The translations under genes and the position numbers were made by a program. Under the pieces are notes generated by a model, which worked only from the letters and a program-made list of their open reading frames with translations, searched no databases and was not told the DNA's origin. A DNA stretch of 64,000 bases from Roseivivax jejudonensis (GTDB taxonomy: Bacteria > Pseudomonadota > Alphaproteobacteria > Rhodobacterales > Rhodobacteraceae): the NCBI RefSeq assembly GCF_900172265.1, contig NZ_FWFK01000001.1:62001-126000 (forward strand). Direction: 5' to 3'. This document shows positions 34,847-57,764 of the stretch, piece by piece (positions within the stretch are counted from its first letter, which is position 1; each line of letters begins with the position of its first letter).

Positions 34847-35614
34847 ATGACACGCGCCAGTATCGACCTCAACTGCGACATGGGCGAGGGCTTCGGGCAC
34901 TGGAGCTACGGCGACGCGCCGGACGAGGACCTGATGCCGATCATCTCCTCGGCGAACGTGGCCACGGGGTTCCACGCCGGCGATCCGATGATCATGGATC
35001 GGCTTGCCGGGCTCGCGCGAGAGCATGACGTGGGGCTCGGCGCGCACCCGGCCTATCGCGACATGCAGGGGTTCGGTCGCCGCGCCATCGCGGCGTCGAG
35101 CGAGGAACTCGTCAACGACATCCTTTATCAGGTGGGCGCGCTCGACATCTTCGCGCGCCGGCACGGGATCGCGCTCAGCCACGTGAAGCCGCACGGTGCG
35201 CTCTACATGACCGCCGCGAAGGACCGCGCGCTGTCGGAAAAGCTGATCGAGGCGCTGCAGGTCGTCGCACCGAACCTGCCGATTTTTTGCATGGGCGTGT
35301 CCGAGACATGGGAGGTCGCGCAAGCGGCGGGCCATCCCGCACGGCGCGAATTCTATGCCGACCGCGAATACGACGCCTCGGGTGCGATCGTGTTCGCGCG
35401 CAAGGCCCCGAGTTTCGAGCCCGCCGCGCTGGCCGACAAATGCGTGCGCGCCTGCGTCGAAGGCAAGGTCACCTGCATCGACGGGCACGACGTCGACGTC
35501 GCCTTCGAGTCGATATGCTTTCACTCCGACACGCCCGGCGCGCGCGACATCGGCCGCGCCATCCGCGACGCGCTCGAGGCCGAGGGCATCACGGTCGCCC
35601 GTCCCGCATCCTGA
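34847..35614 (+). CDS. pxpA: 5-oxoprolinase subunit A, LamB/YcsF family
   Basis: A 255-residue protein with the family start IDLNCDMGEGFG (residues 6-17), ANVATGFHAGDP, GAHPAYRDMQGFGRR and LSHVKPHGALY. PxpA works with PxpB and PxpC in ATP-dependent opening of 5-oxoproline (pyroglutamate). Here it heads an operon with a biotin carrier, a biotin carboxylase and two carboxyltransferase-like subunits. ATG 34847 is chosen over an in-frame ATG at 34817 because the conserved domain starts there. The true substrate may be another lactam. Confidence 0.9.
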   Translation: MTRASIDLNCDMGEGFGHWSYGDAPDEDLMPIISSANVATGFHAGDPMIMDRLAGLAREHDVGLGAHPAYRDMQGFGRRAIAASSEELVNDILYQVGALDIFARRHGIALSHVKPHGALYMTAAKDRALSEKLIEALQVVAPNLPIFCMGVSETWEVAQAAGHPARREFYADREYDASGAIVFARKAPSFEPAALADKCVRACVEGKVTCIDGHDVDVAFESICFHSDTPGARDIGRAIRDALEAEGITVARPAS

Positions 35615-35634
35615 CCCCCAACGGAGGCCCGATC

Positions 35635-35871
35635 ATGGCCAAGGAAATTCAGTGCCCCCTGCCCGGCATCTTCTATCGCAAACCCGCGCCGGAAGAGCCG
35701 CCCTTCGTCGAGGACGGTGGAGCGGTCGAGGCGGGCGCGGTGATCGGGCTTGTCGAGGTGATGAAGTCCTTCCACGAGGTGACGGCCGAGGAAGCGGGTG
35801 AGAATATCCGCTTCGAGGTCGAGAACGAGGGCCAGGTAACCGCGGGCGCCGTGCTCGCGCGGATGGACTGA
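35635..35871 (+). CDS. small biotin carboxyl carrier protein
   Basis: A 78-residue single biotinyl-lipoyl domain: CPLPGIFYRKPAPEEPPFVEDG at the start, and VIGLVEVMKSFHEV with the biotin-accepting Lys44 (VMKS replaces the usual AMKM). No Ala/Pro-rich N-terminal extension, unlike AccB. Both neighbours, pxpA (20 bp) and accC-like (8 bp), are in the same operon. It would shuttle carboxybiotin between the biotin carboxylase at 35880 and the AHS1/AHS2 subunits. Confidence 0.85.
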   Translation: MAKEIQCPLPGIFYRKPAPEEPPFVEDGGAVEAGAVIGLVEVMKSFHEVTAEEAGENIRFEVENEGQVTAGAVLARMD

Positions 35872-35879
35872 TCCGGCGC

Positions 35880-37238
35880 ATGGATCTCAGCGGCAAGACG
35901 CTCTTCGTCGCCAACCGTGGCGAGATCGCGGTCAGGATCGTGCGCGCCGGGCAAGCTCTCGGGATGACGGTCGTGCAGGCCCACTCCGAGGCCGATGCCG
36001 ACATGCTGGCCGTCCGTATCGCTGACCGCGCGGTCGAGATCGGACCGGCGCAGGCCACGAAATCCTATCTCGACGTCGACCGCGTGGTCGCCGCCGCGAC
36101 CGAGGCCGGCGCCGACGCGGTGCACCCCGGCTACGGCTTTTTGTCCGAGAGCCCGCGCTTCGCTCGCGCCGTGGAGGCGGCGGGCCTGATCTTCGTCGGG
36201 CCCTCGGCGGACACCATCGAGCGCATGGGCGACAAGGCGCGTGCCCGCGCCACGGCGATCGAGGCCGGTGTGCCCGTCACCCCCGGCAGCGACGGCCGCA
36301 TCGAAAGCGTCGATGCGGCCCGGAGCGTGGCCGACGAGCTGGGCTATCCGGTGATGATCAAGGCCGCCGCGGGCGGCGGCGGGCGCGGCATCCGGGTCAT
36401 TGCGGATGCCGAGGCGCTCGCCAAGCAGATGCCGCAGGCGCAGTCCGAGGCGCAGGCCGCCTTCGGCGATGGCGGGCTCTACATGGAACGCTTCGTGCCC
36501 GACGCGCGCCATGTCGAGGTGCAGATCCTCGGCGACGGGACCCGCGCGATCCACGCGTTCGAGCGGGAATGCTCGCTCCAGCGGCGACGCCAGAAGGTGT
36601 GGGAAGAGGCTCCGGCCACCTGCCTGACCGAGGACGAGCGCGCCGAACTCTGCGCCTCCGCCGTGCGTCTGGCCGAAAACGTCGGCTACCGGGGCGCCGG
36701 AACGCTGGAATACCTCTTCGATCCGGCGCGGCGCGAGTTCTACTTCATCGAGATGAACACCCGCATCCAGGTCGAACACCCGGTGACCGAGATGGTGACC
36801 GGCCTCGACCTCGTGGCCGAACAGATTCGCGTCGCCTTCGGCGCACCGCTGTCGGTCGCGCAGGAAGACATCCGGCTCGACGGCCACGCCATCGAAGTCC
36901 GCGTGAACGCCGAGGATCCAACCAAGAACTTCATGCCCTTTCCCGGCGTGACCGGCGCGATGCACATCCCCGATGGCGTGCGTTTCGACACGATGCTCTA
37001 CGAGGGCTACGCGATCCCGCCGTTCTACGACTCGCTGCTGGGAAAGCTGATCGTGCACGCCACGGACCGCGACGCCGCGATCGACGCGCTCGCGCGCGCC
37101 ATCGACGGGATGTCGATCGACGGGCTCAAGACGACCCTGCCGCTTCACGCCGCGCTCGCCCGCGACCCGGACGTGCGCGGCGGCGAATATCACACGACCT
37201 GGCTGGAAGACTGGCTGGAACGCACCGAGCTCAACTGA
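35880..37238 (+). CDS. biotin carboxylase subunit (AccC-like)
   Basis: A 452-residue biotin carboxylase with ANRGEIAVRI at the N-terminus, VHPGYGFLSESP, the ATP-grasp loop KAAAGGGGRGIR, ARHVEVQILGDG, ECSLQRRRQKVWEEAP and the catalytic FIEMNTRIQVEHPVTE. Full length for AccC. It carboxylates the biotin on the small carrier using ATP and bicarbonate. Because the downstream carboxyltransferase-type genes are AHS1/AHS2 and not AccA/AccD, this is a dedicated carboxylase and not the housekeeping acetyl-CoA enzyme. Confidence 0.93.
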   Translation: MDLSGKTLFVANRGEIAVRIVRAGQALGMTVVQAHSEADADMLAVRIADRAVEIGPAQATKSYLDVDRVVAAATEAGADAVHPGYGFLSESPRFARAVEAAGLIFVGPSADTIERMGDKARARATAIEAGVPVTPGSDGRIESVDAARSVADELGYPVMIKAAAGGGGRGIRVIADAEALAKQMPQAQSEAQAAFGDGGLYMERFVPDARHVEVQILGDGTRAIHAFERECSLQRRRQKVWEEAPATCLTEDERAELCASAVRLAENVGYRGAGTLEYLFDPARREFYFIEMNTRIQVEHPVTEMVTGLDLVAEQIRVAFGAPLSVAQEDIRLDGHAIEVRVNAEDPTKNFMPFPGVTGAMHIPDGVRFDTMLYEGYAIPPFYDSLLGKLIVHATDRDAAIDALARAIDGMSIDGLKTTLPLHAALARDPDVRGGEYHTTWLEDWLERTELN

Positions 37239-37259
37239 GATCCGGAGGGAGACACCGCC

Positions 37260-38135
37260 GTGAAGACGAGATATTCCCACGGAGGCGACGAGCACATCTT
37301 CGTCGAGATGGACGAGGAGATGTCGCTCGACGCCTTCTTCAAGAGCCTGTCGATGACGAACGCGCTGCGCGAGGCAAAGATCGACGGCGTGACCGAGATC
37401 TGCCCGGCGAACGCCTCGTGCCAGGTCAAGTTCGATCCCGACGTGATCGCGCCCGACGCCATGCTCGAGGAGCTCAAGAAGCTCGAGGACGTGGCCGAGG
37501 CGGCGGAAAAGCGGATGACCACGCGCATCGTCGAGGTGCCGGTCTTCTATCAGGATCCGTGGACTCACGAGACGCTGATGCGGTTCCGTGAACGCCACCA
37601 GGATCCCTCGGGCACGGATCTCGATTATGCGGCGAAGATCAACGGGTTCGACAACGCGGAGGGGTTCATTGCCGCGCACCACGCGAACCCGTGGTTCGTA
37701 TCGATGGTCGGTTTCGTGTCGGGCCTGCCCTTCCTCTACCAGCTGGTCGAACGGGAGCGGCAGCTGCAGGTGCCGAAGTACCTCAGGCCCCGCACCGACA
37801 CGCCCAAGCAAACGGTCGGCTACGGCGGCTGTTTCTCGTGCATCTACTCGGTGCGCGGCGCGGGCGGCTACCAGATGTTCGGCATCACGCCGATGACGAT
37901 CTTCGATCCGAAGCAGGAGGTGAGCTACCTTCGCGACTTCATGGTCTTCTTCCGCCCCGGGGACATCGTGAAGTTCTCGCCCATCGACCGCGACGAGTAC
38001 GACCGCATCCTCAAGGAGGTCGAGGCGGGCACCTACACGCCGAAGATCGCCGAGGTCGATTTCGATCTGGAGGCGTTCAACGCCGACATCGCCGGCACCA
38101 ACGCGAAACTGATGGAGGCTCTCGATGGCGCTTGA
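37260..38135 (+). CDS. carboxyltransferase-domain protein AHS1 (PxpB/KipI-like, urea carboxylase-like subfamily)
   Basis: A 291-residue AHS1-domain protein. N-terminal PxpB-like region (residues 1-80), then VPVFYQ, an insertion (about residues 110-145) and GFVSGLPFLYQL. The usual GGxQxGIYP motif reads GGCFSCIYSVRGAGGYQMFGITP, closer to urea carboxylase (GGCF...) than to E. coli PxpB. GTG start at 37260 with GGAGGGA upstream. With AHS2 (38125) it would accept the carboxyl group and act on an amide-like substrate. The insertion and Cys residues set it apart from canonical PxpB. Confidence 0.82.
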   Translation: MKTRYSHGGDEHIFVEMDEEMSLDAFFKSLSMTNALREAKIDGVTEICPANASCQVKFDPDVIAPDAMLEELKKLEDVAEAAEKRMTTRIVEVPVFYQDPWTHETLMRFRERHQDPSGTDLDYAAKINGFDNAEGFIAAHHANPWFVSMVGFVSGLPFLYQLVERERQLQVPKYLRPRTDTPKQTVGYGGCFSCIYSVRGAGGYQMFGITPMTIFDPKQEVSYLRDFMVFFRPGDIVKFSPIDRDEYDRILKEVEAGTYTPKIAEVDFDLEAFNADIAGTNAKLMEALDGA

Positions 38136-39093
38136 GATCCGCAAACCGGGCCTGCTGACCACGATCCAGGATCTCGGCCGTCCGGGCTATTTCCATCTAG
38201 GAATTCCCATCGGCGGTGCGATGGACCGCCTGTCGCTGCGCGCCGCCAACCGGCTGGTCGGCAATCCCGAGGACGCCGCCTGCCTCGAGGCCGTGTTCAT
38301 GGGGCCCGAACTCGTCGTGACCGAGGACACGCTGCTGGCGGTGACAGGTGGCGAGATGCCCGTGAAGCTCGACGGAGCCGAAGTGCCGACATGGACCTCC
38401 TTTGCCGCGAAGAAGGGCCAGGTGCTGAGCTTCGGCTATCTGACCGACGGCGCGCGGATCTACATCGCCGTCGCCGGTGGCATCGCCACGGAGCCCATGC
38501 TGGGCAGCCGCGCCACCTACGCGATCGGGGCCCTCGGCGGCGTTGACGGTCGCGCGGTCGCCGCCGGCGACGTGCTTCCCGTGGGCGACGGTGCAGGCAC
38601 GCCAGGCCGCACGGTACCCGAGGCGCTGCGTCGCCGGCCCGGCCGACCTGCCGAACTGCGGGTCCTGCCCGGCCTCTACTGGCACCGCATCACCGAAGCC
38701 TCGCAGAAGGCGTTTTTCGATGACGAGTGGTCCGTCGCGCCCGAGGCCGACCGGATGGGCTATCGCTTTCGCGGCGGCCGGCCGCTCGAATTCGTCGAAC
38801 GCGAACAGCCGTTCGGCGCGGGATCGGACCCCTCCAACATCGTCGACGGGTGCTATCCCTACGGCTCGATTCAGGTGCCGGGCGGGACGGAGCCGATCGT
38901 GCTTCACCGAGACGCGGTCTCGGGCGGCGGGTACTTCATGATCGGTGCGGTCATTTCGGCGGACATGGATCTGATCGGTCAACTGCAGCCCAACGTCCCG
39001 GTCCGGTTCCAACGTGTCGACATGGACGCCGCCCTCAAGGCGCGCGCCGAACGGACCGCCGTGCTCGACGAGATCCGGGCCGCGACCGCGTGA
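38125..39093 (+). CDS. carboxyltransferase-domain protein AHS2 (PxpC/KipA-like)
   Basis: A 322-residue AHS2 protein with LLTTIQDLGRPGYFHLGIPIGGAMD at the N-terminus, NRLVGNPEDAACLEAVFMGPEL, AVTGGEMPVKLDG and the conserved RVLPGLYW region with SDPSNIVDGCYPYGSIQVPGG near the C-terminus. It overlaps the AHS1 gene by 11 nt, so the two are probably translated as a complex. Its stop overlaps the GTG of the next gene. Partner of AHS1 in the proposed biotin-dependent enzyme. Confidence 0.9.
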   Translation: MALEIRKPGLLTTIQDLGRPGYFHLGIPIGGAMDRLSLRAANRLVGNPEDAACLEAVFMGPELVVTEDTLLAVTGGEMPVKLDGAEVPTWTSFAAKKGQVLSFGYLTDGARIYIAVAGGIATEPMLGSRATYAIGALGGVDGRAVAAGDVLPVGDGAGTPGRTVPEALRRRPGRPAELRVLPGLYWHRITEASQKAFFDDEWSVAPEADRMGYRFRGGRPLEFVEREQPFGAGSDPSNIVDGCYPYGSIQVPGGTEPIVLHRDAVSGGGYFMIGAVISADMDLIGQLQPNVPVRFQRVDMDAALKARAERTAVLDEIRAATA

Positions 39094-40292
39094 GCATCGG
39101 AACCGCCGAAGCGCCCCAGGCTCCGCGGGTGCGTCGCCCGCGGGAGCCGATGCGCGTGCTCGGCACGACCGTCACGCAGGTGCCGGCGCTCAAGCGCGCG
39201 GCCGAGGAAGATCTCGGCATCCAGCTCGAGTTCATCTCGCTCGACGGAACGGCGGCGCAGCGCGTCGGCGCCCTCTACCCCGACAGGTTCGACGTCTACG
39301 ACCAGTGGTTTCACGACATCGACCTGATCTGGCCCACGGGCTCGATCCAGCCGATCGACGTCACGCGCATCTCGCGCTGGACCGAGATCGAGACGCTTCC
39401 GCGCCTTGCACACCAGACGTCGGGCGCGCCGCCGGCCTCGGGCTCCGAGCCGTCCGAACGTCTTTTCGTGCAGATGGACGGCTCGCTCGGCGACCGGCCG
39501 ACATCATGGATCTCGATGGCGCCGACCGTCCACAACGCCGACAGCTTCGCGGTGGTCGGAGCCGACCCGAAATCCGTACGCAGCTGGGGCGCCCTGCTCG
39601 ATCCGGACTGGTCCGGCGCGGTCTGCCTTCAGACCGACGCGGCGATCGGTGTGCTCGACATGACGCTGGCGCTTCACGCGCGCGGTGGGTTCGCTCCCGA
39701 TGACGCCGGCGACCTGTCGCTCGAGGAGATCGATACCCTCGTTGCGAAGACCGAGACCTATCGGCGAGAAGGGCATTTCGGCTGTCTCTGGGCCGACGAG
39801 AGCGAGGCGATCCGCGCCTTCGGCCGGTCCGAGCGTATGCTCGGTTCGCTCTGGTGGTCGGGCTTCACCAAGCTGCGCGCGCTCGGCATCCCGGTGGAGA
39901 TGGTCACGCCCGAGGTCGGATACCGCGGCTGGTTCGGGGGACTGTCCCTGTCCTCGCGCGCCGATCCTTGGCACGTCGACGCCGCCTACGACTACTTCAA
40001 CTGGTGGTACGGCGGCCGCGCCGGCGCGCTCATGTCCCGCAACGGCGCGTACATGATGGCGCGCGAAACCGTGCGCACCTACCTCACCGAGGCGGAATGG
40101 GATTTCTGGTACGCCGGCAAGCCCGCCGCGACCGAGATCCGCAACTCCGACGGGGCAATCGTCTTCGATGTGGGCGAGGTGCGCGAGGGCGGCTCCTACA
40201 CCGAACGCATGTCGCGGATCGCCATCTGGGACACGATCATGCGCGAGCACAATTACCTCGTGCGGCGCTGGGAGCACGCGCTCAGTCGTTGA
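39090..40292 (+). CDS. polyamine-type substrate-binding-protein homolog without a signal peptide
   Basis: A 400-residue protein of the spermidine/putrescine-binding (PotD-like) superfamily. It is a paralog of the exported binding protein at 46015: both share a C-terminal block (FWYxGKP..., EGGSYTER versus DGGSLEER, IMREHNYLVRRWEHAL versus YDHLIMRWDEFL). Neither the GTG start at 39090 (overlapping the AHS2 stop, GTGA) nor the ATG at 39150 (GGGAG upstream) gives a signal peptide or lipobox. It is co-encoded with the carboxylase operon, so it may be a cytoplasmic sensor or carrier; it is unusual. Confidence 0.75.
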   Translation: MSIGTAEAPQAPRVRRPREPMRVLGTTVTQVPALKRAAEEDLGIQLEFISLDGTAAQRVGALYPDRFDVYDQWFHDIDLIWPTGSIQPIDVTRISRWTEIETLPRLAHQTSGAPPASGSEPSERLFVQMDGSLGDRPTSWISMAPTVHNADSFAVVGADPKSVRSWGALLDPDWSGAVCLQTDAAIGVLDMTLALHARGGFAPDDAGDLSLEEIDTLVAKTETYRREGHFGCLWADESEAIRAFGRSERMLGSLWWSGFTKLRALGIPVEMVTPEVGYRGWFGGLSLSSRADPWHVDAAYDYFNWWYGGRAGALMSRNGAYMMARETVRTYLTEAEWDFWYAGKPAATEIRNSDGAIVFDVGEVREGGSYTERMSRIAIWDTIMREHNYLVRRWEHALSR

Positions 40293-41304
40293 AGCGGCTC
40301 TCGCGCATCAGGTAGTCCGGCAAGTCGGGCGGCGGAAAGACCGAGATCGCCATCAGACGTTTCTGCGTGCGCGCGGCCGACAGCCGCAGGTGCTCGTCGA
40401 GGGCGCGGGCAGCGGCCTCGATCGAGCCACGCCGCAGGAAGCCCAGCACGAAGAGGTGCTCGCGCAGCGCGGGCTCGAACGGCCGGCCGCCGATCACGTT
40501 GGAAAAGACCGCGTTGACCGTCAGCGCGATCTGGCTCTGCTCGATGAAGCGCAGGAGCTGGCTGTTCGGTGTTTCCTGCAGCAGTCGACGATGGATGTCG
40601 TGCTCCAGCTTCTCGACCTGTTCGGACGTGAGCGTGTCGCCGCCCGCGGCCAGCGCCGCCTCGGTGTCGTCCAGCATCTGGACAATCGTTCCGGGCGGCA
40701 GCCGTGGCGCGCTGTCCTCCAACGCCAGCGGCTCCAGCCGCTGACGGATCGCGAAATAGTGCGCGATGTCCCGCGCCGTCAGCGGGCCGAGAACCCAGTG
40801 CGAGCGTCTGTCCTTGCGCAGGAGCCCGCGATCCTGATGACGCTGCAGCAGTTCGCGGATGATCGTGCGCGAGACGTTGTAGTGTTCGGCCGCGCCCACC
40901 TCGTTGATGCGAAACCGGCCGAACGGCAGCGCGCCGGCGATCGTGGCCTCGAAGTCCTGCGCAATCCGTTCCGCGCCGGCCCGCGGCGCGGCGCCCAGCC
41001 GATCGTCTTCGGCGCCGAGCATGTGCGCCGTAAGCGTGATCCGCTGTGGCGCGGCGTCGGCGTCCGCGCCAGCAACGAGAAAGCCGCGGCCATCGAAGCG
41101 GACGAGCCGGCCCTTGGCGACCAGTTCGGCCAGCGCCTTGCGCGCTGGGGTGCGCGAGACACCGAAAATTCGCGCGACCGGATCCTCGCTGACGACGGTC
41201 CCGGCCGGCAGCCGACCGTCGCCTATCGCACCGGTGAGCGCGACCTCGATCGCCGCGTAGCGTGGGGTCTGCCGTCTGCCGTCGAAGTCCCTGGAATCGT
41301 CCAT
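40282..41304 (-). CDS. GntR-family regulator with two winged-helix domains and an FCD domain
   Basis: A 340-residue regulator, about 100 residues longer than usual. Two GntR-type winged helices occur in tandem: residues about 14-78 (SEDPVARIFGVSRTPARKALAELVAKGRLV) and about 111-172 (INEVGAAEHYNVSRTIIRELLQRHQDRGLL). An FCD ligand domain follows (about 176-325). It overlaps the SBP-like gene end by 11 nt and is divergent from the ABC operon at 41583. Direct GAATAC repeats and several dyads in the 278-bp gap are plausible sites. It probably controls uptake and the carboxylase genes. Confidence 0.85.
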   Translation of the reverse strand: MDDSRDFDGRRQTPRYAAIEVALTGAIGDGRLPAGTVVSEDPVARIFGVSRTPARKALAELVAKGRLVRFDGRGFLVAGADADAAPQRITLTAHMLGAEDDRLGAAPRAGAERIAQDFEATIAGALPFGRFRINEVGAAEHYNVSRTIIRELLQRHQDRGLLRKDRRSHWVLGPLTARDIAHYFAIRQRLEPLALEDSAPRLPPGTIVQMLDDTEAALAAGGDTLTSEQVEKLEHDIHRRLLQETPNSQLLRFIEQSQIALTVNAVFSNVIGGRPFEPALREHLFVLGFLRRGSIEAAARALDEHLRLSAARTQKRLMAISVFPPPDLPDYLMRESRFND

Positions 41305-41582
41305 CGGAAATCCTGAGTGCGCCTGTCCAAATTTGTGTCAGTGCCGACGGAGTCGCAACCGGTATACAAATGCACTCTGTGCACAGAATTTCACAATCGT
41401 TCGACAGGGTGCCCCAAAAATTCGTCATGAGCAAATTTTGATGCGCATAAACCCAAGAAAAACGCGTCTTGATGGTGCAGAAGGGGATTGACCGAGCGGA
41501 AACGCCAACGGAATACTAGTATCTGAATACAGAATACATAATGCAGCATCGGAAGCTGCGTTCAAAATACAGGGAGCCGTCC
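41305..41582. promoter_or_regulatory. divergent promoter region of the double-HTH GntR and the ABC operon
   Basis: No gene. It contains GGTATACAAA (41361-41370, GntR-like), a perfect 12-bp palindrome TCTGTGCACAGA (41376-41387), a perfect 10-bp palindrome ATACTAGTAT (41513-41522) and three direct GAATAC repeats at 41511, 41525 and 41532. The right-hand part is AT-rich compared with its surroundings and lies 46-72 bp before the ATPase start. The repeats at 14- and 7-bp intervals fit a regulator with more than one DNA-binding domain per subunit. Confidence 0.55.
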
Positions 41583-42683
41583 ATGCTGGAGCTCAGCCGG
41601 GTCACCAAGGCCTATGCCGGGATCCCCGCGATCGACGCCGTCGACCTGACGATCCGCGACGACGAGTATCTGACGCTGCTCGGCCCGTCCGGATCGGGCA
41701 AGTCCACTCTGCTGCGCCTGATCGCCGGCCTCGACATGGCGGATTCGGGTCGCATCTCGCTTGATGGCGACGACATCACCTTCCGGCCCACGCACCTTCG
41801 CAATCTCGGCTTCGTCCAGCAGAGCTACGGCCTCTTTCCGCACATGAACGTGTTCGACAACGTGGCGTTCGGACTGCGCTACCGCGAAATCGATCCCGTC
41901 ACGGACGACTCCGAGGTTACCCGCCGCGTGCGGTCGATCCTCGACCTCGTTGGGCTCGGCGACCTTGGGGGACGCATGGTCGGCCAGCTCTCGGGCGGGC
42001 AAAAACAGCGCGTGTCGCTGGCGCGCACGCTGGTCACGGAACCCAAGGTCTGCCTGCTCGACGAACCGCTGGGCGCGCTCGACGCCAACCTGCGCGAGCG
42101 GATGACGGTCGAACTGCGCAAGATCCGTGAAACGCTCGGCGTGACCTTCATGCACGTGACCGGCAACGAGGCCGAAGCGCTCGCCATGGGCGACAGGATG
42201 ATCGTCCTCGACCGTGGCCGGCTCCTGCAGGTCTCGGACCCCGACAGCGTGTTCCGGGCGCCGCGCAACGTCGGCGTCGCGCGCTTCGTCAACGCCTACA
42301 ACATCCTCGAGGGAGAGGTGAGCGACGGCAGCTTCCGCTACCGCGACCTGCGCTTTCCCGCACACGGCGCGCCTTCGGGCCGCGCCTCCTACGCGATCCG
42401 TCACGACGCCGCCGAAATCCATACCGACACCGCCCCGCCCGAAAGCCACGCCAGCCTGCCGGCGACCTTCGTCGCCTCGGAATTCCTGGGCAGTCGCTTC
42501 TTCTACTTCCTGCGCCTGCCCGACGGCACGATCTTCGACGTTGAGCGGCACCTGAGCCGTGAGGATCCGCGCCGGATCGAGGCCGGAACCGCCTGCACGG
42601 TGTCCTGGGATCCCGCCAGCGCGCTGGTCTTTGACGCACAGGGCGCGCGTCTGGGTGACGACACGCTGAAGGGAGCCGCCTGA
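41583..42683 (+). CDS. spermidine/putrescine-type ABC transporter ATPase 1
   Basis: A 366-residue PotA-like ATPase with Walker A GPSGSGKST, Q-loop FVQQSYGLFPHMNVFDNVAFG, signature [15 protein letters not shown], Walker [14 protein letters not shown] and a C-terminal TOBE domain (about 280-355). The usual switch His is replaced: FMHVTGNEAEALAMGD has Gly-Asn where THD is expected, so the H-loop His may be missing. It starts at ATG 41583 with AGGGAG upstream and overlaps the permease gene (TGATG). A second ATPase for the same permeases lies at 47295. Confidence 0.85.
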   Translation: MLELSRVTKAYAGIPAIDAVDLTIRDDEYLTLLGPSGSGKSTLLRLIAGLDMADSGRISLDGDDITFRPTHLRNLGFVQQSYGLFPHMNVFDNVAFGLRYREIDPVTDDSEVTRRVRSILDLVGLGDLGGRMVGQLSGGQKQRVSLARTLVTEPKVCLLDEPLGALDANLRERMTVELRKIRETLGVTFMHVTGNEAEALAMGDRMIVLDRGRLLQVSDPDSVFRAPRNVGVARFVNAYNILEGEVSDGSFRYRDLRFPAHGAPSGRASYAIRHDAAEIHTDTAPPESHASLPATFVASEFLGSRFFYFLRLPDGTIFDVERHLSREDPRRIEAGTACTVSWDPASALVFDAQGARLGDDTLKGAA

Positions 42684-43594: not shown

Positions 43595-43607
43595 GGAGGA
43601 GACGGAC

Positions 43608-45202: not shown

Positions 45203-45216
45203 GGAGCCGAGACACC

Positions 45217-47226: not shown

Positions 47227-47235
47227 TCCGATGTC

Positions 47236-47260: not shown

Positions 47261-47294
47261 TCCCCTGCCCGATCGCCCCGCGCCGGAGAAGAGA

Positions 47295-48398: not shown

Positions 48399-48453
48399 CC
48401 GCGATGGCCATTCGACACCAGATATCGAAAACGAGGGAGTGAAGGAGAACCCC

Positions 48454-49329: not shown

Positions 49330-49408
49330 TCGAGAGCGGGCGGGCGGCGCTCCCCCCCGACGCCGGCCGTCCGATCAGAACCGGAACTCGAACAAAGGAC
49401 GACGCGGC

Positions 49409-50766: not shown

Positions 50767-50853
50767 CCGCGCAGCCCGCGCGCATGCATGTTCCAGCATC
50801 GGCCGACCGCAGCGCGCGGGCCTGAATGCCCGCCTCAATTCGAAAGTCCAGCC

Positions 50854-52218
50854 ATGAGCGACCTCGAAACCCTCGCACGTCTTCCTGCGACCGAGATCGG
50901 CGCAGCGCTCGGCCGACGGGAGATCCGCGCCAGCGACCTCGCCGAGCATTGCCTGGCGCGGATCGCGGCGCAGACGGAGCCTGTCTTCCTGTGCGTCACC
51001 GCCGATCGGGCCCGGGCCGAGGCGCGCGCCGCCGATGCGCGGCTCGACGCCGGGCGGCCCCTGTCGCCGCTCGACGGTGTGCCCGTGGCATGGAAGGACC
51101 TGTTCGACCTCGCCGGCGAGGTCACGACCGCCGGGTCTGACACGCGCCGCGCCGCCGCGCCCGCGGTCCGCGATTGCCGCGTGGCCGAACGCCTGACGCA
51201 GGCCGGCATGGTGTCGATGGGCAAGCTGAACATGACCGAGTTCGCGTATTCGGGCCTCGGGCTCAATCCGCATTTCGGCACGCCCGCGAACCCGCATGGC
51301 CGTGACGAGCCGCGGGTGCCGGGCGGGTCGTCCTCGGGGTCCGGCGTGGCGGTGGCGGCGGACCTCGTGCCCTGCGCGATGGGCACGGACACCGGAGGAT
51401 CGATCCGCATTCCCGCCGCGCTGAACGGGATCTTCGGATACAAGCCGTCCTCTGGCCGGATTCCCGACGCGGGGGTATTCCCTCTGTCGCGGACGCTCGA
51501 CACGGTCGGACCGCTTGCGCGCTCGGTTCCGGATCTCGTGGCGCTCGATGCGGCGCTGCGCGGCGGGGCGCCCGTCGCTCCGCGCCCGGCCGGCCTGCGC
51601 GGGCAACGGATCGTCGTGCCCGAAACCATCGTCTTCGACGACATCGAACCCGAAGTTGCGGAGGCTTTCGAGGCGGCGCTCGCAGCGCTGGAGACTGCCG
51701 GGGCCCTGATCGACCGCGCGCCGTTCGCGCCGTTCGCGCTCAGCGCCTCGCTCGCCGCGCAGCACGGATCGCTGGCAGCCGCGGACGCCTACGCGGAGCA
51801 TCGCACCCTGGTCGAAAGCGAGGCCGGGGCCCGCGTCGATCCCCGCGTGACCGACCGGATCATGGGCGGGGCGCAGATGTCGGCATTCGACGTCATCACG
51901 CTGCAGCGGGCGCGCAAACGTCTCGTGGCGCAGACCGCCGACGTTCTGGACGATGCGCTCCTCGCGTTTCCGACGGTTCCGCACGTCGCGCCCGAGATCG
52001 CGCCGCTCGACGCCGACCGCGCCCTGTTCCACCGGGTCAATCTGCTGACCCTGCGCAACACGATGCTCGGCAATTTCCTCGACATGCCCGGGGTCGCGAT
52101 GCCGATGGGAACGGGAGCCGCTGGCCTGCCGGTGAGCCTGCTGCTCTCGGCGCCGAGGGGTCGGGATGCGGCGCTTCTGGCAACGGCACTGGCCGCCGCG
52201 GATACGTTGGCAAGGTGA
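50854..52218 (+). CDS. amidase (amidase signature family)
   Basis: A 454-residue serine amidase with catalytic Lys81 (AWKDLF), the Gly/Ser loop GGSSSGSGVAVA (residues 157-168) and the nucleophile Ser183 in TDTGGSIRIPAALNG. It hydrolyses an amide to acid and ammonia; it resembles aspartyl/glutamyl-tRNA amidotransferase A and allophanate-type amidases, but gatB/gatC are absent. ATG 50854 is preferred over 50788. It follows cobW by 87 bp and ends in a bidirectional terminator. A half-amidase role after ring opening would fit the cluster. Confidence 0.9.
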   Translation: MSDLETLARLPATEIGAALGRREIRASDLAEHCLARIAAQTEPVFLCVTADRARAEARAADARLDAGRPLSPLDGVPVAWKDLFDLAGEVTTAGSDTRRAAAPAVRDCRVAERLTQAGMVSMGKLNMTEFAYSGLGLNPHFGTPANPHGRDEPRVPGGSSSGSGVAVAADLVPCAMGTDTGGSIRIPAALNGIFGYKPSSGRIPDAGVFPLSRTLDTVGPLARSVPDLVALDAALRGGAPVAPRPAGLRGQRIVVPETIVFDDIEPEVAEAFEAALAALETAGALIDRAPFAPFALSASLAAQHGSLAAADAYAEHRTLVESEAGARVDPRVTDRIMGGAQMSAFDVITLQRARKRLVAQTADVLDDALLAFPTVPHVAPEIAPLDADRALFHRVNLLTLRNTMLGNFLDMPGVAMPMGTGAAGLPVSLLLSAPRGRDAALLATALAAADTLAR

Positions 52219-52249: not shown

Positions 52250-54211
52250 TCAGGTCCAGTTCACGACGGTGCGCTTCTCGTAGCTTTCGCGGAACTGCTC
52301 GGTTGTCTTGGGCAGCAACGCCCCGCTCTCCCAATCGAGGATGACGGCATAGCGCCGCACGGCGTCGAGCGCGTCGATCTCGCCGTCGCGGTAGAGTTTC
52401 GCGACCGCTTCGGGATCCATCCGCGCCCAACCGACACGCTCGGCCCGGATCTCGGCGCGCATGGCCTCGGTGGCGTCCGCATCGATCTCGAACTCGCAGA
52501 GCTCGGCGTCGACCTCCCGGATCGCGACGCCGTAGTCGCGCGCCGCCCGCTCGATCGAGACGTAGTCGTCGATCACGTCCTCCAGCACGCGCGCAGGGTC
52601 GCGGTCGAGCGGGTCGCCGAAGCCTCCGCCACCCGCGGTCGGACGCGCGAACTCGTCACCCGTGGAGACCGGATAGTCCGAAAAGACCGAGCCGAGCCAC
52701 TTCGCTTCGGTCTCGCCCTCGCGGCGGATCGAAAGGCCGTGCGGCATGGACGGCAGCCCGCCCTCGACGCCCCAGACCACCGCGCGCTCGCGGTCGCAGA
52801 TGTAGGACATCACCGCGTTCTCGCTCTCCAGAAGGACCGATGTCTTCTGCACGCCGCAGCCGCCGCGCCATTTCCCCGGCCCGGCGCTGTCGCGCAGGAT
52901 CTGGAACTCGGAGGTGCGCGTCGGATTGACCCGTTCGTTGCCCTCGTTCGGCTGCGACATCAGGCCGGTGCCGAAGCAGGCGGTCGTCACGTCCGAGCCG
53001 TCCTTGCCGTTGCGGCCGCCCCAGCCGCCGGGCAGCCATTCGTAGAACATGAACATCGGCTTCTCGGGCGTGCGCAGGTCGGTGCCGCCCGCAAGCAGGT
53101 ATTCGAGGTTGAACGCGCAGGCGATGGCGCGATCGGGCATGATCTCGGACCACATCTCGAAGATCGCGTTCATGATCTTCTCGAACGGCATCAGGAATCC
53201 TGTCACCGCCACCGGCCACTCGGCGCTGACAACGGTATTGTCCGGAGCGTCGATATCGATCACCCGGTAGAACCCGGAGTTGAGCGGCAGGTCGGGGAAG
53301 AAGGTCTTCATCCCCGCGACAACGGCCGAGAAGGTCGCGCCCGGCGCAGAGTTGTAGATCGACGAGATCGTTGGATGGCTGCCCGCGAAATCGTAAAGGA
53401 TCCGGTCGCCCTTGATCGTCATCTTGATGTGGATCGGGATCATGCCCTCGCCCTGCCCCGGGTCGCGGTCGATGTAGTCGACCGTTTCCCAGGTGCCGTC
53501 GGGCAGCGCCGAGATGCGCTGGCGCACGGCGCGTTCCACGTAGTCCTGAACCTCTTCCATGCCCTGCAGCACCGCGTCGCGTCCGTACTTGCCGATCAGG
53601 CGGAGCACCTCGCGTTCGGCGACCTGCGTCGCGCTCGCCTGGCTGTGAATGTCGCCGATGATCGACGCCGGATCGCGGGTGTTCGCCGCGATCATCCCCG
53701 CCACGTCATGGCAGAACTCGCCCTGCCGGAAGAGCCGGACCGGCGTGATCCGCACCGCCTCGCGAAACATGTCCCGGGCGGAGACGTCGAAGGACCCCGG
53801 CACCGACCCGCCGAGGTCCGACCAGTGACCGTTCGATTGCGAGAAGCCGACGAGCGTGTCGTCGTCGAAGATCGGCCGCACCAGCCGGACGTCGCTGAAG
53901 TGCGTGCCGCCGGCATAGGGATCGTTGATGGCATAGACGTCGCCCGGCATCATCTCGCCGCCGAAGACGCGGATCACGTCCTTGCATGTGAAATGCAGTG
54001 TGCCGACATGCACGGCGATGTCTTGGTTGCCCTGCGCGACGGAATTGCCGTCGGCATCGTGCAACCCGTTCGAAAAGTCGCGGTTATAGATCACGAACGA
54101 GTAGCAGGTGCGCAGCATCTGCTCGGACATCTGGTCGACGGCCGTGATGAACGAGTTCTTCAGCACCTCGAAGGTGACCGGATCGAGCGGTTGGGTGTTC
54201 GCGTCACGCAT
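52250..54211 (-). CDS. hyuB: hydantoinase/oxoprolinase subunit B
   Basis: A 653-residue HyuB-family protein. Motifs include DPVTFEVLKNSF at the N-terminus, SQGNQDIAVHVGTLHFT, MPGDVYAINDPYAGGTHFSDVRLV, and a C-terminal GGGGFGDPLDRDP. With HyuA it hydrolyses cyclic amides (hydantoin, 5-oxoproline, N-methylhydantoin) using ATP, or carboxylates ketones in the acetone carboxylase branch. Only A and B are present with no small gamma subunit, favouring the hydantoinase branch. It lies 3 bp after hyuA. Confidence 0.92.
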   Translation of the reverse strand: MRDANTQPLDPVTFEVLKNSFITAVDQMSEQMLRTCYSFVIYNRDFSNGLHDADGNSVAQGNQDIAVHVGTLHFTCKDVIRVFGGEMMPGDVYAINDPYAGGTHFSDVRLVRPIFDDDTLVGFSQSNGHWSDLGGSVPGSFDVSARDMFREAVRITPVRLFRQGEFCHDVAGMIAANTRDPASIIGDIHSQASATQVAEREVLRLIGKYGRDAVLQGMEEVQDYVERAVRQRISALPDGTWETVDYIDRDPGQGEGMIPIHIKMTIKGDRILYDFAGSHPTISSIYNSAPGATFSAVVAGMKTFFPDLPLNSGFYRVIDIDAPDNTVVSAEWPVAVTGFLMPFEKIMNAIFEMWSEIMPDRAIACAFNLEYLLAGGTDLRTPEKPMFMFYEWLPGGWGGRNGKDGSDVTTACFGTGLMSQPNEGNERVNPTRTSEFQILRDSAGPGKWRGGCGVQKTSVLLESENAVMSYICDRERAVVWGVEGGLPSMPHGLSIRREGETEAKWLGSVFSDYPVSTGDEFARPTAGGGGFGDPLDRDPARVLEDVIDDYVSIERAARDYGVAIREVDAELCEFEIDADATEAMRAEIRAERVGWARMDPEAVAKLYRDGEIDALDAVRRYAVILDWESGALLPKTTEQFRESYEKRTVVNWT

Positions 54212-54214: not shown

Positions 54215-56242
54215 TCAGCCCTTCGTGTGGATGCGGATGTTCATGTAGGCGTCGACCTCGGCGCGCATGCCGGGCGGGACAACGATGGTGGAGTCGACCT
54301 GTTCGACGACAGCCGGACCGGTGATTTCCGCGCCCGCCGTCAACGTATCGCGGACGTGGATGCCGGCATCATGGCGGGTGCCGTCGAACCAGACCGCGCG
54401 TGTCGACGCTGGTTCGGGACTGTGGGTCTTCACGTCCGATTTGGGAAGCTCCGCCTTGGGCACGACGCCGGTGGCCTTGACCGCAACGCGGAAGAGCGAC
54501 ACCGGCGCGTCGCGGCGCGCGAAGTTGTACTCGCGCTCGTGTGCGGCGTGAAACGCGTCGGTCAGTTCGGAAATGCTGGTGATCTCGGGCGGAGCGGACA
54601 CCTCGAGCGACCGCCATTGCCCGTGATACATCATTTCGGACGAGCGCTGGAACACCATGTCCGCGGGCGACACCCCCTCCTTTTCGAGCTGCGTGCGGGC
54701 GTCGTCCTCGATGCGGCGGAACGCGGCTTCGAGATCGGCCGGATCGGTCGTCGCGGCGGGCTGCATGAAGCTGTCTGAGAAATCATGCTGGATGTCGACG
54801 AGCAGGCAGCCCAGCGCCGAGGTCACGCCCGGGTTCGGCGGCACGATCACGGTCGGGATCGACAGCTCGCGCGCGATCGCGGCGCCGTGGAGTGCGCCCG
54901 CGCCACCGAACGCGCAAAGCGCGAAGTCGCGCGGATCGTAGCCGCGCGTGATCGACAGCAGGCGCACGGCGTTCGCCATGTTCGCGTTCGCCACACGCAC
55001 GATCGCCTCGGCCGCCTCGTGAAGCTCCATCCCGAAGGGCTCGGCCACCGTCCGGCGCACCGCGGCCTCGGCCAGCTCGGGGTCGAGCGTGATCTTGCCC
55101 CCCGCCAGCGAGGTGCCGAGGCGCCCCAGAACCACGTTGGCATCGGTGTTCGTCGCGACCTCGTTGCCGTTCTTGTAACACGCGGGCCCCGGGTCGGCGC
55201 CGGCAGATTGCGGTCCGTTGCGCAGCGACCCGCCCTCGTCCTTCCAGGCCAGCGACCCGCCGCCCGCGCCGATGGTCAGAACCTCGATCGAGGGAAAGCG
55301 GATGGGGAAGCCGTATTCGATGTACCAGTCCTTGGTAATCCGCGGCTTGCCTTCGTAGCTGACCGACACGTCGGTCGACGTGCCGCCCATGTCGAAGCCG
55401 ATCGTGTTCGGAAAGCCGCAGAGATTGCCGATGAAGCGGCTCGCGATCGCGCCGGCCGCGATGCCCGATCCGGCGAGCCGCGCGGCGAAGTCGCGCACCG
55501 CGTGCGGTGTCATCACGCCGCCGCCGGTGTGCAGCAGCAGCAGCTCGCGCTCGTAGCCGCCCTCGGCCAGCTTGTCGCTGAGCCGCGAGACGTAATCGAC
55601 CACCACCGGCGAGACCACGGCGTTCGCCATCGTGGTGGAGAAGCGCTCGTGCTCGAAGATCTCCGGCATGATCTCGGCGGAGATCGATACCGGCATGTCG
55701 GGCATCTCCTCCTTGAGGATGTCGCGCATCCGCCGCTCGTTCTCGGGGTTCACGTACGAGTTCATGAAGCAGACCGCGATCGACGCGACGCCGCGCCGCG
55801 CGAGGATGCGCGCCACGCGGCGGGCATCGTCCTCGTTCAGGGATTCGAGCACGCGGCCCTCGGCATCGACGCGCTCGCGCACGGTCAGCCGATCGCGGCG
55901 CGGGATGTAGGGCTTGGCCACGTCCTTGTAGGTATCCCAGAGGTCCTCCTTGTTGGCGCGGCGGATCTCGACCACGTCGCGGAATCCCTCGGTGCAGACC
56001 ATCGCCGTGCGCGGCAGGTTGCGGGTGATCAGCGCGTTCGTCGCGACCGTCGTTCCGTGCGAGAACATCGACACATCGGACAGGTCGATCCGTCCCTGTT
56101 CGATGCCGGTCATGATGGCCTGCATCGGGTCCGACGGGGTGGACGCGGTCTTTTCGATCCGGATCTCGCCGGTGCCCTCGTCCATGATGCAGATGTCTGT
56201 GAAGGTGCCGCCGACATCGACGGCCACGCGTGTCTTGCTCAT
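54215..56242 (-). CDS. hyuA: hydantoinase/oxoprolinase subunit A
   Basis: A 675-residue HyuA protein with the actin-like ATPase motifs VDVGGTFTDICIMDE (N-terminus), FSHGTTVATNALITRNLPRTAMVCTEGFRD, GFDMGGTSTDVS and the third phosphate loop FGGAGALHGAAIARE. ATG 56242 has AGGAGAGAG upstream; a longer open frame to 56446 is not protein-like. It binds ATP and, with HyuB, opens the ring. It follows the AraC gene by 103 bp on the same strand. Confidence 0.93.
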   Translation of the reverse strand: MSKTRVAVDVGGTFTDICIMDEGTGEIRIEKTASTPSDPMQAIMTGIEQGRIDLSDVSMFSHGTTVATNALITRNLPRTAMVCTEGFRDVVEIRRANKEDLWDTYKDVAKPYIPRRDRLTVRERVDAEGRVLESLNEDDARRVARILARRGVASIAVCFMNSYVNPENERRMRDILKEEMPDMPVSISAEIMPEIFEHERFSTTMANAVVSPVVVDYVSRLSDKLAEGGYERELLLLHTGGGVMTPHAVRDFAARLAGSGIAAGAIASRFIGNLCGFPNTIGFDMGGTSTDVSVSYEGKPRITKDWYIEYGFPIRFPSIEVLTIGAGGGSLAWKDEGGSLRNGPQSAGADPGPACYKNGNEVATNTDANVVLGRLGTSLAGGKITLDPELAEAAVRRTVAEPFGMELHEAAEAIVRVANANMANAVRLLSITRGYDPRDFALCAFGGAGALHGAAIARELSIPTVIVPPNPGVTSALGCLLVDIQHDFSDSFMQPAATTDPADLEAAFRRIEDDARTQLEKEGVSPADMVFQRSSEMMYHGQWRSLEVSAPPEITSISELTDAFHAAHEREYNFARRDAPVSLFRVAVKATGVVPKAELPKSDVKTHSPEPASTRAVWFDGTRHDAGIHVRDTLTAGAEITGPAVVEQVDSTIVVPPGMRAEVDAYMNIRIHTKG

Positions 56243-56345
56243 GCGAACTCTCTCCTGTTGGCGCACGGACACAGGCAGGCGGCCGCCCGACGGGCGGACC
56301 GCGCGCCGTGGCACGCGCTGAACTCGTTGTTGGATACCGGCGGCG

Positions 56346-57296
56346 CTAGCCTGCGCCGCGGAACCGGGCCGCCTCCTTGCGGGTGGCGGTGGGCGTGCGG
56401 CCGAACCTGGCCTTGTAGTGACGCGAGAACTGCGACTGGTCGGCAAAGCCCCAGCGATAGGCGATCTCGGCCACGCTCAGGCCGGTCGGCGCGGCGCGCA
56501 GTTCCTCGTCGCAGCGGCTGAGGCGGCGGTCTCGGATATAGCCGTTCACCGAGTTGCCGGTCTCGGCGAAGAGATCCTGAAGATAGCGCAACGAGATACC
56601 GCAGGCGTCCGCCACCGTCTGCGGGCCGAGTTCGGGATCCTTGAGGTGATCCCGGATCACCTGCTCCGCCCTGTAGAGATGCGCGGCCCGAACCGACGAG
56701 CGCTGCGAACGCAGCACCCGCGCGTCGCCCTCGATCGCGAGGCAGAGCAGATCCAGAAGGTGCCGCCCCGCCGCCTCGCGCCCCGGCGCGTCGAGCCGGT
56801 CCACGTGGCTCACGGCGGCGCGCATGCTGGACAGGAAGTAGGCGCCCACGCCCTCCTGCGCGTCGAGCGTCAGACCGCCCAGACGATCGGTCGGCCCGAG
56901 CCGCGCGAGGACGCTGGCCGTGGGCACCTTCACCACCCACTGCGCATTGCGCCCGGCGTGCCAGTATTCGTAGGGAGCATCGGACCGTTCCACGAGCAGC
57001 CCGCCGGGGGCACAAGACGTGCGGCGGCGGTTCTGCGTGAAGTGCACCGGTTCGTTCTCGGGGATCGCGATCAGCAGTGAGCTGTCGCGCTCATTGAGGA
57101 AGTGGCGCCGGTGACGGCGATAGAGCACGCCGTCGCATTCGATACGGCTGAGGCCGATCACGCCGAGCGACCAGCGCTGCATGTCGCCGCCGAACGATTC
57201 CCGGTCGTGATACTCGGTCTCCAGCTCGAAATAGGTGCTGGAGACGGTCTGCTGCCATCTGTCGCCGCCGGACAGGCGAGGCTCGGGCTTTGACAT
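56346..57296 (-). CDS. AraC-family transcriptional regulator
   Basis: A 316-residue regulator with an N-terminal sensor domain (AraC-binding-like 2 type, with RHRRHFLNERDSSLLIAIPENEP) and a C-terminal double HTH (about residues 205-310; GPQTVADACGISLRYLQDLFAETGNSVNGYIRDRRL and LSVAEIAYRWGFADQSQFSRHYKARFGRTP). ATG 57296 has GGAGGAG 4-10 nt upstream, better than ATG 57356. It probably activates hyuAB, which follow on the same strand. The inducer is unknown. Confidence 0.9.
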   Translation of the reverse strand: MSKPEPRLSGGDRWQQTVSSTYFELETEYHDRESFGGDMQRWSLGVIGLSRIECDGVLYRRHRRHFLNERDSSLLIAIPENEPVHFTQNRRRTSCAPGGLLVERSDAPYEYWHAGRNAQWVVKVPTASVLARLGPTDRLGGLTLDAQEGVGAYFLSSMRAAVSHVDRLDAPGREAAGRHLLDLLCLAIEGDARVLRSQRSSVRAAHLYRAEQVIRDHLKDPELGPQTVADACGISLRYLQDLFAETGNSVNGYIRDRRLSRCDEELRAAPTGLSVAEIAYRWGFADQSQFSRHYKARFGRTPTATRKEAARFRGAG

Positions 57297-57458
57297 GTCA
57301 CTCCTCCACGGCGCCGCGATCGGGGCCGGTGCGTCGATCTTGGCAAACGATGCCACAACAGCGTCCGCGTTCTTGCCGATTCGCGCAGAAAAATTTTCCG
57401 GCGTCGCGGTCGCACCGGCACCGTGCCCGGATATCGGGCCGTCCCTGGCCGCACGGGC

Positions 57459-57764
57459 CTATTTCGGATCGAGGAGTTCGATCTCGATGAAGGCGCACTC
57501 GAAGTCGTTGCCGTTCACCACGTCATGTTCGACGCCCGCCTCGCGGAAATAGGGGACACCGGTCTTCAGGTGCGCCTCGTTGCGCGTGCCGCCCTCGGTC
57601 TCGATCACGAGCGTTCCGTCGAATTGCGGAACGACGACGTAGTCGACCGCGTGCCGATGCCAGCCGGTGTTGTCGCCCTTGCGCGGAAAGCGCCACTCGG
57701 TGACGCGCACGCGCGCATTGTCGATCATCACCGTCGGCGTCGCGGTTCCGGTCGTTTCGGTCAT
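57459..57764 (-). CDS. small cupin, BauB-like
   Basis: A 101-residue cupin with VRVTEWRFPRKGDNTGWHRHAVDYVVVP and PYFREAGVEHDVVN; His residues in GWHRHAVDY and VEHDV form the usual metal site. It resembles BauB proteins found in beta-alanine/amino-amide degradation clusters, whose function is not established. It lies 162 bp upstream of the AraC gene on the same strand and next to the hydantoinase genes, consistent with the amide-degradation theme. Confidence 0.8.
   Translation of the reverse strand: MTETTGTATPTVMIDNARVRVTEWRFPRKGDNTGWHRHAVDYVVVPQFDGTLVIETEGGTRNEAHLKTGVPYFREAGVEHDVVNGNDFECAFIEIELLDPK

Follow-up and report, generated by a model that had tools for sequence, protein, structure and literature searches.

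The 64,000-nucleotide stretch of Roseivivax jejudonensis DNA analyzed here (RefSeq assembly GCF_900172265.1, contig NZ_FWFK01000001.1, positions 62,001 to 126,000; hereafter, the window) comes from a 4.3-Mb genome (G+C, 67%) and carries, at 34847-57764, a block in which genes for an ATP-binding cassette (ABC) importer stand among genes for several enzyme families that open or cleave C-N bonds. The question that this locus raises is whether these genes make up one pathway and, if so, for what kind of compound. An earlier note on the same DNA had proposed all 23 kb as a candidate single system for degrading a cyclic amide, imide or hydantoin. Third-position G+C and family searches (Pfam and NCBIfam) divide the block into three transcription units. 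The first two (34847-52218) belong together, and in our judgment they rather probably encode a single pathway for the catabolism of small cyclic amides, whose likeliest substrate is a cyclic imide or hydroxylated lactam that serves as a nitrogen source; the third, with the hydantoinase pair HyuA/HyuB, is facultative (the pair is present at 50% identity or more in 0 of the 80 loci described below and linked in two of 25 listed plasmids with a close HyuA).

Layout and conservation of the block

Unit 1 (forward strand) runs from pxpA to a second substrate-binding protein (SBP2) and is separated by a reverse-strand GntR/FCD regulator from unit 2 (forward strand), 11 genes from ATPase 1 to the amidase whose neighbors overlap or lie at most 90 bases apart; unit 3 (reverse strand) comprises the cupin, AraC, HyuA and HyuB. 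The genes are as follows.

34847-35614, +, PxpA-like LamB/YcsF protein (PF03746, 283 bits)
35635-35871, +, biotin carboxyl carrier protein (BCCP; EVMKS motif; a carrier is annotated at the same place in the two Rhizobium plasmids described below)
35880-37238, +, biotin carboxylase (BC; Pfam; NF009471, 734 bits versus cut-off 686)
37260-38135, +, AHS1/carboxyltransferase subdomain C-D (CT_C_D; PF02682; under the cut-off of the PxpB equivalog TIGR00370)
38125-39093, +, AHS2/carboxyltransferase subdomain A-B (CT_A_B; PF02626; under the cut-off of the PxpC equivalog NF045499)
39090 (GTG) or 39150 (ATG) to 40292, +, SBP2, of substrate-binding-protein fold, no signal peptide visible
40282-41304, -, GntR/FCD regulator, divergent from the ABC operon (PF00392, PF07729)
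41541-42683, +, ABC ATPase 1, PotA-like (PF00005, PF08402)
42683-43594, +, ABC permease, PotB-like (PF00528)
43608-44459, +, ABC permease, PotC-like (PF00528)
44456-45202, +, short-chain dehydrogenase/reductase SDR1 (PF13561/PF00106; Y155/K159 and D37 conserved)
45199-45969, +, SDR2 (PF13561/PF00106; Y157/K161 conserved)
46015-47226, +, SBP1, PotD-like (SBP_bac_8, PF13416), with a twin-arginine-type signal (N-terminal SRRGM)
47295-48398, +, ABC ATPase 2 (PF00005, PF08402)
48454-49329, +, HpPgdA/HxnM-type hydrolase, probably a Zn-dependent cyclic imide hydrolase (PF01522)
49409-49729, +, small CxxC protein (MCGLCG), 106 residues, no family match
49726-50766, +, CobW/COG0523 GTPase (PF02492, PF07683; GKT and CxCC motifs)
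50788-52218, +, amidase-signature hydrolase, start perhaps nearer 50854 (PF01425; NF004766, 580 bits versus cut-off 559)
52250-54211, -, HyuB (Hydantoinase B), facultative module (PF02538)
54215-56242, -, HyuA (Hydantoinase A), facultative module (PF01968)
56346-57356, -, AraC-type regulator (PF14525, PF12833)
57459-57764, -, cupin (PF07883)

Conservation was examined in two samples. A ten-row alignment of the hydrolase (from which L007, on the wrong strand, and L028 had been excluded and L008 omitted because of a stop-codon error) was used to scan 84,980 species genomes; the best 80 of 491 confirmed stretches, here called the 80 loci, are mostly alpha-, beta- and gammaproteobacterial, with many from Pseudomonas, one SAR324 record and three actinobacterial records; 26 are shorter than 20 kb and 54 have 10 kb on either side, and presence was called by identity cut-offs that we set ourselves. 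The second sample consists of 289 alphaproteobacterial genomes, and one tree was built, from 43 rows chosen by hand.

The earlier note had named a lack of co-conservation in relatives among the findings that would refute its proposal; the genes prove to be co-conserved. All 20 of the 80 loci that bear SBP1 also carry GntR, both ATPases, the permeases, the SDRs, SBP2, the hydrolase, the CxxC protein and CobW. Over all 80 loci, the CxxC protein is present in 76, CobW in 75, SDR2 in 61, GntR in 60, SBP2 in 58, SDR1 in 57 and the amidase in 56, and an asparaginase-like gene in seven. A major facilitator superfamily (MFS) carrier is found in 41 and the full ABC set in 20, the two together in none, and an amidase or asparaginase-like gene lies within the stretch in 56 of these 61 MFS- or ABC-type loci. 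Seven flanking genes of the window used as controls, five from upstream of the block and two from beyond the cupin on the downstream side, were found in 0 of the 80 loci, two matches of 26-28% to the AMP-binding upstream control in L090 falling below the identity cut-offs. The extended importer set is rare: SBP1 was detected at E 1e-120 in two of the 289 genomes.

Two plasmids, pRL12 of Rhizobium johnstonii 3841 and pRL1 of Rhizobium leguminosarum Ta9k, match the block almost gene by gene. Both of these Rhizobium plasmids have pxpA-BCCP-BC-AHS1-AHS2, then GntR on the reverse strand, then ATPase-permease-permease-SDR-SDR-SBP1-ATPase-hydrolase-CxxC-CobW-SBP2-amidase, the one change of order being that SBP2 of the window is placed behind AHS2. 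By tblastn, the hydrolase has matches in 412 plasmid records (in 71, at 60-80% identity) and the CxxC protein in 64. In Klebsiella, Pantoea and Paraburkholderia plasmids, an MFS carrier substitutes for the ABC importer and SBP2 is retained; Thioclava has an asparaginase in the position of the amidase, and Acidiphilium combines the MFS carrier with both SDRs and the pxp module. The order of units 1 and 2 is kept in other genera, more than chance would give, and unit 3 is linked to them in few genomes. Of the roughly 18 genes of the block, a core is shared even by bacteria that are only distant relatives.

Two further observations concern these loci. A perfect palindrome, AAATGTACATTT, is found in 27 of 63 GntR intergenic stretches, in Pseudomonas and Pantoea loci (e.g., L041 and L023), where it is a candidate operator; it is not present in the GntR intergenic region of the window. 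On a Shinella plasmid (L028, 17106-18299), a gene for L-2-hydroxyglutarate oxidase adjoins the amidase and would suit a hydroxyglutarate product; it was not found in the other 89 loci compared.

As for the genes themselves, Pfam and NCBIfam bear out the earlier calls of PxpA, AHS1/AHS2, biotin carboxylase, two ATPases, two SDRs, CobW, amidase and HyuA/HyuB, and the coordinates agree, except that HyuA is better started at 56242. The earlier list had missed the biotin carrier and the CxxC protein; of the three regulators that it counted, two were found (GntR/FCD and AraC). Of its two binding-protein homologs, SBP1 is recognized by Pfam, whereas SBP2 is identified by homologue and predicted fold and has no visible signal peptide, and its BauB-like cupin does match a cupin family but at 19.8 bits, under the Pfam cut-off of 27.2. 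Assignment of the amidase as AtzE-type was rejected (TIGR02715, 253.1 bits versus a cut-off of 425.75). Immediately 5' of pxpA lies a sulfotransferase-family gene (33899-34756, forward strand), which 0 of the 80 loci share with the block, and just beyond the block, at 57876-60227 on the reverse strand, a gene for a 783-residue protein with RTX calcium-binding repeats.

The hydrolase and its probable metal-delivery pair

Most striking in the analysis are the signal-less SBP2 and the almost unfailing presence of CobW and the CxxC protein near the hydrolase. The best solved relative of the hydrolase is HpPgdA (3qbu, H. pylori HP0310), which it matches over 291 residues without a gap at 506.6 bits, and all active-site residues published for HpPgdA are kept, at the same numbering (D12, D14, Y23, H86, H90, W127, W196, L201 and H247), in columns that are at least 95% identical among 91 sequences, which agrees with the earlier assignment to the HpPgdA/cyclic-imidase type. 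In the portions of the structural study drawn on here (PMC3084791), Zn is bound by Asp14, His86 and His90, a water molecule contacts Asp12 and His247, and Tyr23, Trp127, Trp196 and Leu201 form a gate; HpPgdA was inactive on GlcNAc, chitotriose, N-acetylated polyamines (N-acetylputrescine, -spermidine and -cadaverine), N-acetyl dipeptides and allantoin, and a small-molecule substrate was argued for. The fungal protein HxnM is classed as CE4_HpPgdA_like and is described as sharing more than 60% identity with AAY98498, a cyclic-imide hydrolase of P. putida (PMC8478523, in the part drawn on). Judged by sequence, the window hydrolase falls into one group with fungal HxnM, a cyclic imidase, and with HpPgdA, and it is a probable Zn-dependent cyclic imide hydrolase. 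It was also compared with the PuuE allantoinase, which was rejected (TIGR03212, 71.1 bits versus a cut-off of 424.6), and no signal peptide is visible in it. Two of the alphaproteobacterial genomes (G105 and G220; L131, L132, L133 and L142) hold two hydrolase copies each, with a CxxC protein gene near each copy.

Of the 289 genomes, 17 carry the hydrolase, at 19 places (E 1e-100 or better), and 18 carry the CxxC protein, at 20 places that all lie within 1.2 kb of a hydrolase relative. All 17 hydrolase-positive genomes are also CxxC-positive, with 18 of the 19 pairs at most 400 bases apart and the last 1172, and the twentieth CxxC gene (in G193) lies between CobW and a gene for a protein 29% identical to the window hydrolase. 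Fisher's exact test for this co-occurrence gives p 1.5e-26 on the assumption of independent genomes, which they are not. Where a locus extends 10 kb to either side (54 cases), CobW is found in 53 and the CxxC protein in 53; apart from a Streptomyces locus taken up below, the loci without one or both (L052, L054, L059 and L071) are shorter stretches. Residues G12, K15 and T16 (GKT, Walker A) and C62, C64 and C65 (CxCC) of CobW are at least 95% identical in 86 sequences, and C2, C5, G6 and W13 of the CxxC protein are invariant in 31 rows; Pfam and NCBIfam match nothing in this protein, and no clear fold relative was found for it. Most likely, CobW and the CxxC protein metallate the hydrolase, gene neighborhood being what suggests the client. 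A precedent for a putative metallochaperone next to an amide hydrolase is naaT beside naaS in Ruegeria pomeroyi, where, as in the block, naaR-naaABB'CC'-naaS-naaT places an amide hydrolase, a putative metallochaperone, a two-ATPase ABC importer and a regulator side by side; those genes differ in serving a linear amide, N-acetyltaurine, and SDRs, a PxpA module and a CxxC protein are not in the published table (PMC4334477, in the part drawn on).

The company that the hydrolase-CxxC-CobW cassette keeps elsewhere bears on the class of substrate. It adjoins, or lies within 2 kb of, a dihydropyrimidinase/D-hydantoinase gene over the TIGR02033 cut-off in L123, L124, L076 and L082, and L124 also has genes for a carbon-nitrogen hydrolase and a protein of the Asp/Glu/hydantoin racemase family; it shares the stretch with HyuA/HyuB relatives of 27-39% identity in L038, L093, L118 and L119 and with a fused biotin-dependent carboxylase in L111, and other lineages have none of these neighbors. 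L038 (a Kiloniellaceae bin) joins HyuAB, pxpA-BCCP-BC-AHS1-AHS2, a cupin, the hydrolase, CxxC, CobW, HyuBA and SBP2; an SDR of the block's type was not found in that stretch. That such different gene sets share one theme, the opening of cyclic amides, supports a role in cyclic-amide metabolism.

Binding proteins, the biotin module and HyuAB

Pfam gave no match for SBP2 of the window itself, and one of two homologues scanned matches SBP_bac_8. The predicted fold is that of a two-lobed substrate-binding protein, and the model matches structures such as PotD, PotF and the receptors MotA (mannopine) and AgtB (agropinic acid). Whereas a twin-arginine motif is present in 25 of 25 SBP1 relatives, none was seen in the 63 of 69 SBP2 rows in which the start motif was located (the window's is among the six others); N-termini were inspected as well, no signal-peptide predictor being run. 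Several rows are over-extended at the 5' end by automatic start choice, which places hydrophobic segments ahead of the likely start (most of all in L070). SBP2 is retained where an MFS carrier stands in for the ABC importer, and its gene is part of the pxp unit in three loci (the window's, L033 and L116) and part of the hydrolase unit in Rhizobium, a shift that ties both units together. SBP2 probably binds a pathway ligand in the cytoplasm. The same genome has, outside the window (L120, G000:C6:140000-159900), another polyamine-type ABC locus, which combines a binding protein that resembles SBP2 (34-37%) with a racemase-like gene (38%) and a distant protein of polysaccharide-deacetylase fold (22%).

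NCBIfam backs the PxpA protein and the biotin carboxylase of unit 1, the former passing NF003814 (286.5 versus 226 bits) and falling under the cut-offs of four other PxpA models. The module shares PxpA, AHS1 and AHS2 relatives with the PxpABC 5-oxoprolinase and adds a biotin carboxylase and a carrier; reading it as canonical PxpABC was rejected by NCBIfam cut-offs (TIGR00370, 79 versus 145.55; NF045499, 205.8 versus 500). With its carrier and carboxylase, it would rather resemble a split biotin-dependent lactam or urea-type enzyme. In Aspergillus, lamA and lamB serve a lactam, 2-pyrrolidinone, with a biotin-carboxylase-like LamA and a LamB/YcsF protein.

HyuA and HyuB at 50% identity or more occur in 0 of the 80 loci. 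A close HyuA is found in 27 plasmid records, and of the 25 listed, two (both Ensifer) also carry the SBP1 of the block; in these, HyuAB lies a few kilobases past the amidase and is followed by an aminotransferase, which would fit a lactam opened into an amino acid. Four of the 289 genomes have a close HyuA (the window's, G120, G105 and G220), and three of these have the hydrolase. In five of five plasmid loci examined whose HyuA reaches at least 65% (L031, L136-L139), an AraC relative adjoins it; none was seen beside HyuA of G120 (L135) or G220 (L130). L038, alone among the 80 loci, has a 46% cupin relative, placed between AHS2 and the hydrolase. The best NCBIfam matches of the window pair are the subunits of caprolactamase CapAB from Pseudomonas jessenii, which belong to the HyuA/HyuB families (PMC8453981, in the part drawn on), and at 524.3 (alpha, NF050156) and 288.6 bits (beta, NF050157) they are so far under the cut-off of 1000 that the pair is not the same enzyme and the assignment was rejected. 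HyuA, HyuB and AraC are a separate, facultative module, linked to the block in few genomes, so that the earlier reading of a single 23-kb system was too broad, though correct in theme.

In G120 (L116, G120:C15:148700-168600, with L134), a near-complete block occurs with HyuAB, and a second, distant HyuAB pair lies past the amidase. The close pair is 76-80% identical to that of the window. With the hydrolase, the CxxC protein and CobW missing there, this single case gives the impression that HyuAB or pxp might suffice without them.

Proposed pathway and competing readings

Gene content, conservation, active-site residues and the lack of a visible signal on SBP2 can be read directly, and from them we infer the reactions, the metal partner and the substrate. 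SBP1, in the periplasm, and the polyamine/opine-type ABC importer would bring the compound in, a task that would fall to the MFS carrier in gamma- and betaproteobacterial versions. One or both SDRs may then oxidize a ring hydroxyl, converting a hydroxylactam to a cyclic imide, which the HpPgdA/HxnM-type Zn hydrolase, supplied with metal by CobW and the CxxC protein, would open to a half-amide; from this, the amidase, or in some genomes an asparaginase, would release ammonia and a dicarboxylate. The PxpA-BCCP-BC-AHS1-AHS2 module might open the lactam form, using ATP, bicarbonate and biotin, and HyuAB-AraC-cupin would be an optional, separately regulated lactam-opening module.

This order of reactions, SDR oxidation, ring opening and half-amide hydrolysis, is the one that the earlier note had suggested, and it is plausible by analogy with HxnW-HxnM-HxnN of nicotinate breakdown in Aspergillus nidulans: mutant metabolites place HxnM between the SDR HxnW, whose product from a dihydroxypiperidinone is a cyclic imide, and the amidase HxnN, which frees ammonia (PMC9304392, in the part drawn on). 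The fungal trio shares its SDR, HpPgdA-like imidase and amidase families with the block and differs in that an ABC importer, CobW, a CxxC protein, SBP2 and a PxpA module are not described in the portions of the two papers drawn on (PMC9304392, PMC8478523). The block, for its part, has two SDRs, and counterparts of the upstream nicotinate hydroxylase, monooxygenases and alkene reductase of the Hxn pathway are not among its genes. The P. putida cyclic-imide hydrolase belongs to the same family through the HxnM link, and a gene cluster for it was not found in the literature. The earlier statement that no pathway with this gene set had been described stands insofar as such a cluster was not found in the literature searched, but its logic at the level of parts has been published for the fungus. 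Imidase plus half-amidase logic is also known for bacterial cyclic imides, and the cyclic-imide/half-amidase pathway of Blastobacter follows it, as the block would.

Three other explanations were weighed. The block might be two or three unrelated nitrogen-scavenging modules lying side by side (imidase-amidase, biotin-dependent PxpA and HyuAB), each with its own substrates. AraC-HyuA-HyuB does occur without pxp or the hydrolase in the stretches examined of Rhizobium B21/90 and Sulfitobacter, and pxpA-BCCP-BC-AHS1-AHS2-AraC-HyuA-HyuB occurs in Methylobacterium with no hydrolase in the 20 kb examined; the cassette lacks pxp in 41 of 41 MFS-type loci of the 80, though one MFS-type plasmid (L026) has the module, and close HyuA is missing from the 80 loci. 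Yet of 25 ABC-type loci (five on plasmids and 20 from the 80), 17 have the pxp genes next to GntR, and of the eight without them there, four (L034-L037) have SBP2 in that place and fewer than 800 bases of further sequence; SBP2 sits in either unit depending on the genome, and separate assemblies (L038, L026, L139 and L116) unite the same modules. We consider this explanation unlikely.

Catabolism of an opine or polyamine derivative, in which the lactam or N-acyl part of an imported conjugate would be opened, the SDRs would act on a polyol side chain and ring chemistry would be secondary, is likewise improbable. The importer and both binding proteins fall in the polyamine/opine group, as do the structural matches of SBP2, and agropinic acid includes a lactam. 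Polyamine importers stand near relatives of HpPgdA, as the structural study points out in the part drawn on (PMC3084791), but the same study found HpPgdA inactive on the three N-acetylated polyamines; moreover, gamma- and betaproteobacterial versions have an MFS carrier instead of the ABC importer, and the cassette also accompanies dihydropyrimidinase and HyuAB genes. A true deacetylase in an amino-sugar pathway, with the SDRs and amidase processing amino sugars, has the plasmid-record annotation, the family name, general-type SDRs and the older peptidoglycan work cited in PMC3084791 (in the part drawn on) in its favor, but is very improbable, given a hydrolase with no visible signal peptide, a relative inactive on GlcNAc and chitotriose, conservation of all the bulky side chains that close the HpPgdA pocket and cyclic-amide enzymes as neighbors in other lineages.

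Several observations weigh against one cyclic-amide system encoded by units 1 and 2. The block of G120 (L116) lacks the hydrolase, the CxxC protein and CobW, and in that genome no hydrolase match was found at E 0.001 and no CxxC match at 1e-6; the imidase is therefore not indispensable for the remaining genes. The Streptomyces locus (L089) has the hydrolase, SDRs and MFS carrier without CobW or the CxxC protein. The pxp genes stand beside GntR in only the 17 of 25 ABC-type loci, in 0 of 41 MFS-type loci and in one of 19 others, and the counts are not independent, the 80 loci being the nearest hydrolase relatives with many from Pseudomonas. Polyamine/opine-type importers do not indicate imides, the structural study of HpPgdA saw activity on no pure compound tried, allantoin included and no other cyclic imide seen among them, and older work that it cites has HpPgdA deacetylating crude H. 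pylori peptidoglycan, with mutants in support, which goes against taking HpPgdA for an imidase (PMC3084791, in the part drawn on).

With these points counted, we still favor a cyclic-amide pathway for units 1 and 2, and more tentatively, as a possibility somewhat short of an even chance, we propose that bacterial HpPgdA/CIH-type imidases have a maturation system of their own, consisting of CobW and a CxxC adaptor that is never away from a hydrolase relative in the sampled genomes, that a widespread and so far undescribed pathway for cyclic imides or lactams has this cassette as its movable core and that SBP2 is an importer-derived protein moved to the cytoplasm as a ligand sensor, buffer or enzyme subunit. 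Retention of a transporter's binding protein within the cell, as SBP2 would then represent, is unusual. For the hydrolase family, the locus points to a probable metal-delivery pair and offers a testable home to enzymes whose best-studied member, HpPgdA, was inactive on all pure compounds in its structural study; it also suggests that bacteria have their own version of the imide steps known from the fungus, which would bear on the fate of imides and lactams in soil.

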